Source: a virus
IMG/VR virus record: IMGVR_UViG_3300044635_000484
Span: 1-21,813 of that record
DNA: 21,813 bases
Direction: 5' to 3' (one strand)
Part shown: piece after piece, positions 16,777 through 18,342 of the stretch
How the letters are laid out: the number at the start of each line of letters is the position of its first letter
Position numbering within the stretch: the stretch's first letter is position 1
Notes under the pieces: model-generated
Told to the model about the DNA's origin: nothing
The model's input: the letters and a program-made list of their open reading frames with translations, nothing else
The model's database searches: none
Position numbers and translations under genes: made by a program

Positions 16777-16947
16777 ATGAACGCAATGATCATTCAAGCG
16801 CTAGTACGCCACCTTTTGACCGCGCTGGCCGGCGGCTTCGCTGTCAAGTACGGCATCGGCAGCGACGTCATGGATGCCATCATCGGCGGTGGCGCTGCGC
16901 TGGCCGGTGTGGGTTGGTCGGTCTACGACAAGCGCAAACAACCGTGA
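16777..16947 (+). CDS. Holin-like protein
   Basis: The 56-residue protein starts at ATG 16777, preceded by GAAAGGA at 16765-16771. Two hydrophobic segments (about residues 8-25 and 32-49) flank a short turn containing GIGSDVMD, and the protein ends with the positive tail YDKRKQP. The second segment is Gly/Ala-rich (AIIGGGAALAGVGW). Size, two membrane segments, basic C-terminus and position just before the endolysin fit a class II-type holin that opens the inner membrane at lysis. Its stop overlaps the GTG start of the endolysin as GTGA. The holin call is by topology and context. Confidence 0.75.
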   Translation: MNAMIIQALVRHLLTALAGGFAVKYGIGSDVMDAIIGGGAALAGVGWSVYDKRKQP

Positions 16948-17306
16948 AGTGGTCGGATTACCCCAGCTTCACGGCTGCCGAGTTCCGTTGCCGCCACTGC
17001 GGCAAGCAGGAGATGAAGCCCGAGTTCATGGGGCGTCTGCAGGCGCTGCGAGACGTCTACAAGCGCCCCATGAGCATCACCTCGGGCTACCGCTGCCCTG
17101 ACCACCCCATCGAGAAGGCCAAAACCGAGCCGGGGATGCACTCGACTGGCCTAGCTTGCGATGTCGGCGTGCAGGGCGCTGACGCCCATGAACTGCTGCG
17201 CCTAGCCATGCACCTAGGCTTCACCGGCATCGGCGTGCAGCAGAAGGGATCGGGGCGATTTATCCATCTGGACTTACGCTCCACGCCGTCGATCTGGTCG
17301 TACTAG
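16944..17306 (+). CDS. Endolysin, peptidase M15 type
   Basis: Starting at GTG 16944 the product has 120 residues (MKWSDYPSFTAAEFRCRHCG...). It shows the M15 zinc peptidase pattern: SGYR at 47-50, HSTGLACDV with zinc-binding His66 and Asp73, and IHLDLR with the third ligand His108. C16-x-x-C19 and C51 are additional cysteines common near the start of this subgroup. Such enzymes cleave peptide bonds in peptidoglycan (D-Ala-D-Ala or L-Ala-D-Glu type) and serve as phage endolysins. There is no signal peptide, so it needs the holin encoded immediately upstream. An upstream in-frame start would give ten extra residues, but the GTGA overlap favours 16944. Its TAG lies in a CTAG shared with the opposite-strand gene. 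Confidence 0.87.
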   Translation: MKWSDYPSFTAAEFRCRHCGKQEMKPEFMGRLQALRDVYKRPMSITSGYRCPDHPIEKAKTEPGMHSTGLACDVGVQGADAHELLRLAMHLGFTGIGVQQKGSGRFIHLDLRSTPSIWSY

Positions 17307-17521
17307 CCTGCAAAGAACAGGGCCAGCGTGCCCATGATGGCCACAAGAGCCGCGGCGAACAAGATCAGACCCGCGGCCTCTTCTTTCCAGTACTCGGGGC
17401 CGTAGAAGTCGGGCTCTTCGCAGCCGAGTTCAGTGCAGCATTCGGCGGCTTGGGGGTGTCGGCCTTGCTGGTCGCAGCCGTTGGGGACTCGCGTGTGCTG
17501 AAGCGGTGATTGTTCGCGCAT
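17303..17521 (-). CDS. Small C-terminally membrane-anchored protein, overlapping frame
   Basis: ATG 17521 is preceded by GGAGG (17531-17527 on the minus strand) with a five-base spacer, giving a 72-residue product. It ends with PDFYGPEYWKEEAAG followed by a convincing membrane segment (LILFAAALVAIMGTLALFF). ECCTELGCEEPD precedes it, with three cysteines. The frame is also open upstream to ATG 17641, which has its own SD (AAGGAG) and overlaps the previous gene's stop as ATGA; that start would give 112 residues. The first part overlaps the zinc-ribbon gene at 17365-17601 in another frame. Its stop shares CTAG with the endolysin stop on the other strand. Function is unknown. Confidence 0.55.
   Translation of the reverse strand: MREQSPLQHTRVPNGCDQQGRHPQAAECCTELGCEEPDFYGPEYWKEEAAGLILFAAALVAIMGTLALFFAG
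17346..17381 (+). terminator. Possible stem-loop ending the rightward block
   Basis: GCCGCGG (17349-17355) can pair with CCGCGGC (17371-17377), and AGA (17346-17348) with TCT (17379-17381) around one bulged C. The loop is 15 bases and the stem is followed by a pyrimidine-rich TCTTTCC in the rightward direction. It lies 40 bases past the endolysin stop, inside a leftward gene. It is the only terminator candidate at the convergent junction, and a weak one. Confidence 0.3.
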
Positions 17522-17601
17522 TCGTACCTCCGATAGGTGTAGCCTTCTCGCTGCCTGGTTTGTAGGACTTCCGTCCATGCCTTGCAAGTGGGACATTTCA
17601 T
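17365..17601 (-). CDS. NrdR-like stand-alone zinc-ribbon protein
   Basis: The 78-residue product starts MKCPTCKAWTEVLQTRQREG and continues YTYRRYECANNHRFSTRE. This is the zinc-ribbon pattern of the N-terminus of NrdR, with C3-x-x-C6 and C28-x3-H32 as likely ligands, R24-R25 before the second pair and R-F-S-T-R-E after it. The ATP-cone domain of NrdR is absent; the remaining 40 residues are Ser/Thr/Ala/Pro-rich and disordered-looking. No SD precedes ATG 17601, which lies inside another frame that starts at 17641, so initiation may depend on ribosomes from that start. It may bind nucleic acid, but this is inference from the ribbon alone. Confidence 0.65.
   Translation of the reverse strand: MKCPTCKAWTEVLQTRQREGYTYRRYECANNHRFSTRESPTAATSKADTPKPPNAALNSAAKSPTSTAPSTGKKRPRV
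17527..17531 (-). promoter_or_regulatory. Internal ribosome-binding site inside the zinc-ribbon gene
   Basis: On the minus strand GGAGG is followed by TACGA and ATG 17521. The site also encodes R-R-Y of the zinc ribbon through CGG and AGG codons. It supports separate initiation of the membrane-anchored small protein in the overlapping frame. Confidence 0.5.
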
Positions 17602-17637
17602 AGGGAAGCACGTCGCGGATGTTGGCGAAGCTGGGGT

Positions 17638-17844
17638 TCATGCGTTGCGCTCCTTCAGCGCGGCCTCAATCTCCTGATGCACATCAGTCAGCCGTTGCAG
17701 TGCCTCCTCCGCAAGCGCGGCGCGGAGAGCGTCAATTGCTTGCCATCGTTCAGGGCGATTTGCCTTTTGCGTGAAGCCCCATTCGTCTGCCATGAACTCC
17801 AACGCCTCCAACGCCTGCTGGGCGGCGGTACGAAGGTCACTCAT
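17638..17844 (-). CDS. Small helical protein with duplicated N-terminus (copy 1)
   Basis: The 68-residue product starts MSDLRTAAQQALEALEFMAD and continues as one or two amphipathic helices (AIDALRAALAEEALQRLTDV). ATG 17844 is preceded by GGAGG and overlaps the upstream stop region (ATGAGTGA); the ATG-like start 18 bases earlier lies within the neighbour's coding end and is less likely. The first 15 residues are identical to those of the gene at 17837-18145, and the DNA of the two starts is 41 of 45 identical. Such short helical proteins are frequent in phage accessory operons. No function is recognised. Confidence 0.7.
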   Translation of the reverse strand: MSDLRTAAQQALEALEFMADEWGFTQKANRPERWQAIDALRAALAEEALQRLTDVHQEIEAALKERNA

Positions 17845-18145
17845 GGTCGTCCTCCGGTTCAATGGGCACCTCGACCAGCGGCTTGCCGCAGTAGCAGCAG
17901 TGCGTCATGCGGTTGTCGGTCGGGGTGCCGTCGTTCAGTTGGAAATAGCGATGCCTGCCGCACGACGCGGCCCACTTGTCGGAATCCTCGTCGCCGTCTT
18001 GGTACCAGTGGCATTCGGTGGGCTGATACAGCGCGGCCCTGAGGTCGGCAAGCGCATCCCTCGTAAGAAGCACATCGTCCTCGCCATTCGCGCAGTTCTG
18101 CAACGCCTCCAGCGCCTGCTGGGCGGCGGTTCTCAGGTCACTCAT
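17837..18145 (-). CDS. Small protein with duplicated N-terminus and C-terminal zinc-knuckle (copy 2)
   Basis: The 102-residue product starts MSDLRTAAQQALEALQNCAN at ATG 18145, which overlaps the previous gene's stop as ATGA and follows GGAG. A helical N-terminal half (to about residue 40) is followed by YQPTECHWYQDGDEDSDKWA and CGRHRYFQLNDGTPTDNRMT, and a final HCCYCGKPLVEVP that looks like half of a zinc-binding site; C-H and C-x2-H pairs earlier could complete it. An acidic tail (PIEPEDDHE) ends it. The N-terminus is shared with the next gene, but the C-termini are unrelated. It may be a small nucleic-acid or protein-binding accessory factor; function is unknown. Confidence 0.7.
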   Translation of the reverse strand: MSDLRTAAQQALEALQNCANGEDDVLLTRDALADLRAALYQPTECHWYQDGDEDSDKWAASCGRHRYFQLNDGTPTDNRMTHCCYCGKPLVEVPIEPEDDHE

Positions 18146-18342
18146 CTCATCCACTCCGGTTTCTTGGGCAGCGGTGCCCAGCCGAGATACCCGCCAACAC
18201 CGGGCTGGTACTGCCCGTAGACGGCCACGCCGCCCTGGGTCAGCAGTTGGACTTTCGCGGACAGCGGGCATGTGTGCAGCGGGCGCCAGAAGTAGTCCTG
18301 ATCCACGGCTGCAGCCCGATCACTGGTGATCTTGACTGTCAT
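18142..18342 (-). CDS. Small protein resembling DUF551-type phage proteins
   Basis: The 66-residue protein starts MTVKITSDRAAAVDQDYFWR and contains P-L-H-T-C-P, then KVQLLTQGGVAVYGQY and LGWAPLPKKPEWM. The order W-x-P-L, K-x-Q-L-L, G-V-A-x-Y-G, W-A-P-L-P resembles the DUF551 type of small phage proteins (W...P-L-P-x-P at the end). Its ATG overlaps the upstream stop as ATGA, and its stop overlaps the downstream start in the same way. The function of such proteins is not known to me. Confidence 0.7.
   Translation of the reverse strand: MTVKITSDRAAAVDQDYFWRPLHTCPLSAKVQLLTQGGVAVYGQYQPGVGGYLGWAPLPKKPEWMR

Follow-up and report, generated by a model that had tools for sequence, protein, structure and literature searches.

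The minus strand of an uncultured 21.8-kb phage (IMG/VR virus record IMGVR_UViG_3300044635_000484, positions 1–21,813, analyzed at full length and referred to here as the window) presents three start codons, ATG 17641, ATG 17601, and ATG 17521, in two open frames, raising the question of which of these starts belong to genes and how such genes came to occupy the same DNA. The coordinates of the starts were rechecked and agree with the original prediction. ATG 17641 has an AAGGAG sequence 8 bases ahead, forms an ATGA overlap with the upstream TGA at positions 17640–17638, and opens a frame that continues down to position 17303, encoding 112 residues that end in a hydrophobic segment. The ORF beginning at ATG 17601 lies in the other frame and encodes a zinc ribbon, with no Shine–Dalgarno (SD)-like site ahead of its ATG. 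ATG 17521, with GGAGG 5 bases upstream, is in the same frame as the membrane segment. The label “nested” is misleading for this arrangement: the overlap between the ribbon gene and the membrane-protein gene is partial and tail-to-head (Table 1). The interpretation offered with the prediction, which ranged from true overlapping genes through re-initiation to two indel errors, is partly supported as a whole.

Table 1. Features of the window around the three minus-strand starts
Feature	Positions	Strand	Basis or remark
Endolysin (M15 peptidase), facing the membrane gene convergently	16914..17306	+	Pfam Peptidase_M15_3, 1.8e-14; PHROG 894 endolysin, 1.8e-26
Gene for the small membrane protein (start ATG 17521, 72 aa)	17303..17521	-	Relatives, ATG conservation, helix model
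Zinc-ribbon gene, 78 aa (MKCPTC...CANNH)	17365..17601	-	Pfam match, relatives, AlphaFold2
Same-strand overlap, 157 nt, recombination joint at ~17490	17365..17521	-	Substitutions by codon position
GGAGG SD-like site for ATG 17521	17527..17531	-	Within ribbon Arg codons CGG AGG
Remnant of a 113–114-aa gene (its ATG and first codons, MNPSFANIRDVL), fused by rearrangement to the ribbon start	17602..17641	-	Intact copies in relatives
Upstream gene (MSDLRTAAQQALEAL..., likely start ATG 17844)	17638..17862	-	100 relatives; 3′ end bears the AAGGAG and the ATGA joint

The ribbon is composed of a conserved core, codons 1–38, and a tail of ~39 codons that are read from membrane-gene DNA. The match of the core to the N-terminal model of NrdR spans 38 residues. 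Against the Pfam NrdR zinc ribbon (PF22811), the window ribbon scores 25.3 bits, just under the cut-off of 27.2, and its relatives exceed that cut-off with 31.8–43.8 bits; some of these relatives also match the Ogr/Delta zinc finger (PF04606) with 32 bits. The start and core are conserved across more than 575 IMG/VR stretches, and a single-sequence IMG/VR search returned 17 close relatives. In the AlphaFold2 model, pLDDT is ~92 for residues 1–40 and ~52 for residues 41–78. A sequence profile search matched NrdR structures weakly (E ~0.005), and a Foldseek search with the model returned short β-hairpin matches, none of them significant. The ribbon scores 15.2 bits against full-length NrdR (TIGR00244; cut-off, 124.65), and the ATP-cone domain that is expected of an NrdR protein is absent from its 78 residues. 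Judging from these matches, we tentatively consider the ribbon to be probably a small nucleic-acid-binding regulator, given its NrdR/Ogr-like sequence. Several related phage ribbons (L010–L012, L239, L247, L248, L269, and L277) have a longer C-terminal part containing LTPFQIAQVLGITHGDVRKKL, a sequence that resembles a helix-turn-helix and points to DNA binding as a possible role of the ribbon family.

The product of the second gene is modeled with a single C-terminal transmembrane helix (residues 42–71, pLDDT up to 97). In its family, the core P-x-GCDQQGR-x-P-x-AAE precedes a variable spacer, after which comes a single hydrophobic helix at the C terminus, and the GCDQQGR-x-P-x-AAE motif is near-invariant among the members (L125–L204). 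A single-sequence search of IMG/VR returned 26 relatives and a search with an alignment 180, of which 80 loci were kept for locus comparison. The window protein has no match in Pfam, PHROGs, NCBIfam, or PADLOC; tblastn of this protein and two family members against 50,697 phage records gave no match; a genome_contigs pattern search returned 75 stretches, 0 of them confirmed; and a nucleotide search of phage records with the 2 kb around the site matched nothing. The family apparently has no described counterpart in the libraries searched. The protein is probably, though with low certainty, a single-pass inner-membrane protein with the conserved motif on the cytoplasmic side, and it would belong to the general class of small single-pass phage membrane proteins.

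In 20 of the 80 loci that were compared, a ribbon gene overlaps the membrane gene from upstream, with the +1 frame relation unchanged throughout; the other loci lack such a ribbon, and none of the loci has ribbon and membrane protein in a single frame. Ribbon-less membrane genes start with MTSRIPNGCDQQGR... (MTSRIP.. or similar) or with other short N termini, and the start often lies directly behind an AAGGAG, within an ATGA overlap with the preceding gene. Where the ribbon is present, membrane residues 1–10 (MREQSPLQHT) come from ribbon DNA, and both this N terminus and the ribbon tail are of low confidence in the structure models. The 157-nt overlap recurs with an identical frame relation in 19 distinct relatives, none of which has the two parts in one frame; this supports true overlapping genes and rules out two indel errors. 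That annotated long co-directional overlaps in prokaryotes are mostly errors (PMC2478687) would favor a single ribbon-membrane protein split by one or two indels. However, the frame relation common to all 19 sequences, the occurrence of the membrane gene alone with its own start, and the separate constraint pattern on each side of the joint, described below, make such an error extremely improbable.

Constraint was followed in 19 distinct gap-free sequences as the minimum number of substitutions per site, summed at ribbon codon positions 1/2/3, where ribbon position 2 corresponds to membrane position 3. The counts are 22/13/40 before the overlap (17598–17522), 4/2/13 in the first 33 nt of the overlap (17521–17489), and 6/27/6 in the next 69 nt (17488–17420); the last two sets differ with a chi-square p of 4.5e-5, shared ancestry being left uncorrected. 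Upstream of ~17490 the ribbon third positions vary, and downstream of it the membrane third positions vary. Because the variable position switches in this way, constraint passes from the ribbon to the membrane protein at ~17490. Purifying selection at the protein level acts on the ribbon over 17598–17489 and on the membrane protein over 17488–17420, so that the proposed test for constraint in both frames found each frame constrained, but each on only one side of the joint. The switch point coincides with the onset of homology to ribbon-less membrane genes (R-[VI]-P). Since constraint switches at this point, we interpret the overlap as a recombination joint, at which the ribbon was left without its stop and the membrane gene without its start. 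The ribbon stop lies 112 nt past the glycine of GCDQQG, the position of the first +1 stop in ribbon-less relatives with the same C-terminal type, and this match indicates that the ribbon runs on until the first stop that it meets. One ancestral fusion is likely to lie behind the overlapping set.

The ribbon frame is open through the overlap in 19 of 19 relatives, as would be expected if selection acted in both frames across the entire overlap and the ribbon tail were functional. Such dual coding should lower synonymous variation, yet the overlap retains variability at membrane third positions. These positions vary at 15 of 18 core sites, versus 17 of 18 in ribbon-less relatives, and the pairwise values at these positions are 0.34 per site in overlapping and 0.42 per site in ribbon-less sequences. 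Because these positions are ribbon second positions, the changes alter ribbon residues. Together with the low pLDDT of the tail, this variability makes selection in both frames quite unlikely. In two related contigs (L007/L024/L141 and L008/L029/L145), a TAA that is silent in the ribbon (CCC to CCT) interrupts the membrane frame after GRHP, and for this reason the membrane protein looks broken in them. In both contigs, the membrane-helix part beyond the TAA still appears intact. The TAA in L141 and L145 may represent a recent loss or an alternative way of starting.

The start of the membrane gene is built into the ribbon. In ATG 17521, the A is the wobble base of a ribbon codon and the TG opens the codon after it, TGC, which encodes a zinc-ligand Cys; this ATG is kept in 19 of 19 distinct overlapping relatives. 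In the overlapping set, the codons GAA, ACA, CAA, AAA, and GGA occur directly ahead of the Cys that is the third presumed zinc ligand; they specify five residues, and all end in A. The codon at this place ends in G in 48 of 62 distinct ribbons without a membrane gene. A GGAG or GAGG sequence precedes the start in 12 of 13 distinct overlapping ribbons versus 3 of 62 without a membrane gene (Fisher p = 2e-10, shared ancestry left uncorrected). AGG accounts for 1 of the 66 Arg codons in four neighboring minus-strand genes of the window. In two relatives (L174 and L199), the conserved ATG is present and the SD site is absent. Between ATG 17521 and the conserved core, the membrane frame has no further ATG, GTG, or TTG. 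Chance was assessed by replacing the ribbon codons with synonymous ones drawn according to the codon usage of this phage: the membrane frame was open in 26% of the redrawn ribbons, the ATG was present as well in 3.1%, and the open frame, the ATG, and the SD site occurred together in 0.025%. An open frame alone is weak evidence, because 26% of redraws leave it open; the start, the SD site, and their conservation taken together are not due to chance.

These data also bear on a programmed −1 frameshift that would produce a membrane-anchored zinc ribbon. The membrane frame is indeed −1 with respect to the ribbon, and the length of the overlap would suffice, but the window ribbon contains no strict X_XXY_YYZ heptamer, none is conserved in the overlap of the 19 relatives, and the RNA fold near the 17521 start is unremarkable (z = 0.5). 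Moreover, the membrane family normally initiates alone, and initiation explains the conservation of both the SD site and the ATG; we regard frameshifting as very unlikely. The architecture, the joint, the separate constraint on each gene, and the conservation of the start and SD site are established by comparison of the sequences. On the same basis, the locus very probably comprises two genuine, separately initiated genes, their 157-nt overlap having arisen from recombination that joined a ribbon gene to the 5′ end of a membrane gene.

The third start, ATG 17641, has a different origin. Intact copies of the 113–114-residue gene to which it belongs are found at L004:3663–4004 and L035:3212–3556, and in L004 the intact gene ends with a TGA that forms an ATGA joint with the ribbon start. 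Of that gene, 12 codons are retained in the window and in a second contig (L002/L019/L045), joined within GACGTGCT/TCCCTATGAAATG. The window and L019 differ by 12 mismatches in 6,801 bases, all clustered ~2.3 kb off. The distance from the ATG of this gene to the ribbon ATG is 40 nt in the window versus 338 nt in L004, and it is the junction of the 12 codons with the ribbon that places the remnant in frame with the membrane protein. In 6 of the 19 relatives (L144, L146, L147, L196, L199, and L200), stops occur in the 17641 frame before ATG 17521, and the DNA upstream of the ribbon start consists of unrelated genes among the relatives. Given the unrelated upstream DNA, the donor gene, and the interrupted frame in relatives, the long ORF is a local accident, and its start is not conserved. 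The enclosing 17641–17303 frame is accordingly not a conserved gene as first drawn, having the truncated start of another gene brought into frame by rearrangement.

Nevertheless, the AAGGAG and ATGA joint at 17641 are good, the frame is open, and the same junction recurs in the second contig, all of which would suit a real gene for a 112-residue membrane protein with its own SD site, the ribbon and the 17521 start then being spurious. Against this stand the foreign first 12 codons, the unrelated DNA and in-frame stops just described, and the constraint on the ribbon frame across 17598–17489, and we consider such a gene highly improbable. An additional minor product from ATG 17641, in this virus alone, is unlikely; if made, it would be an N-terminally extended form of the membrane protein.

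The gene that contributes the AAGGAG and the ATGA to this junction is itself part of a variable region. The gene after its ATGA differs in almost every relative, and because the gene following the MSDLRTAAQQALEAL gene changes from contig to contig, the region has the character of a mosaic operon of ATGA joints. Two successive genes within 17638–18271 share the leader MSDLRTAAQQALEAL. The product of the 17638–17862 gene resembles about 100 IMG/VR relatives over at most ~44 residues at the N terminus, beyond which the sequences diverge. As judged from its relatives, this gene is a conserved N-terminal module with swapped C termini and downstream genes.

Comparison shows that the ribbon gene, without a stop of its own, ends at the first stop in the +1 frame of the membrane gene, and that the membrane gene, having lost its usual start, uses the ATG formed inside ribbon codons with GGAGG ahead; in the two-gene reading that we favor, each gene thus borrowed its replacement from the other. 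Ribosomes would load internally at the GGAGG and ATG 17521 to yield the 72-residue membrane protein, perhaps aided by ribosomes translating the ribbon, and re-initiation may contribute. The last ~39 residues of the ribbon and the first ~10 of the membrane protein would be tolerated passengers. Expression of the ribbon in this virus appears uncertain: its ATG in the window has no SD site and lacks the ATGA coupling present in L004, and since the rearrangement took away the coupling stop, initiation there is doubtful. This uncertainty counts against the two-gene reading, as do the interrupted membrane frame in L141 and L145 and the missing SD site in L174 and L199. The placement of the membrane start and SD site within zinc-ligand codons could be taken to mean that the ribbon controls the dose of the membrane protein, either through ribosome traffic or by binding its own mRNA, with the 17641 fusion adding an extended isoform. 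We consider such a built-in regulator unlikely.

At its 3′ end, the membrane gene (minus strand) shares the palindrome CTAG, positions 17303–17306, with the stop of the M15 endolysin (plus strand). The two genes therefore meet tail to tail on four bases, and in several relatives the minus-strand ORF ends at the same offset (−4). Among the loci scored, a convergent M15 or GH24 endolysin lies opposite the membrane gene in 17 of 17 distinct overlapping cases and in 22 of 46 that have no ribbon. The facing endolysin varies in type, M15 or GH24, and about half of the ribbon-less loci have neither. The membrane protein may, with low certainty, belong to an operon that is convergent with a lysis cassette.

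The fourth zinc ligand of NrdR is a Cys. The phage ribbon has a His (CANxH) as the fourth presumed ligand at this place, and it differs from NrdR also in its total length of 78 residues without an ATP-cone domain. A literature search on zinc ribbons of the NrdR type encoded in overlapping frames of phages returned nothing relevant. The locus provides a clean natural case of phage recombination creating a long same-strand overlap: donor-state relatives are known for all three pieces (the ribbon alone, the membrane gene alone, and the intact gene behind the leftover start), and the constraint switch locates the joint with a precision of a few bases. The analysis additionally delimits a small family of phage membrane proteins bearing the GCDQQGR-x-P-x-AAE motif, a family that is absent from the libraries searched. 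A survey covering 338 prokaryotic genomes recognized no co-directional overlap of ≥60 bp as real (PMC2478687), and the longest real bacterial case was holD–rimI, with up to 56 bp (Palleja et al. 2008, PMC2478687). Overlaps that form by extension of the end of the upstream gene or the start of the downstream gene are of a known kind (PMC3887535). As in the unidirectional prokaryotic overlaps that arise when a start or stop codon is lost and replaced (Fonseca et al. 2013, PMC3887535), the two phage genes lie on one strand, the upstream one runs on at its 3′ end to a stop within its neighbor, and the downstream one has its start within the upstream gene. Unlike those overlaps, the phage case is 157 nt long, its recombination joint removed both the stop and the start, and it is kept in 19 distinct phage sequences. 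By these comparisons of sequence, the overlap is a real and fairly ordinary co-directional overlap of a known kind, longer than the cases surveyed.
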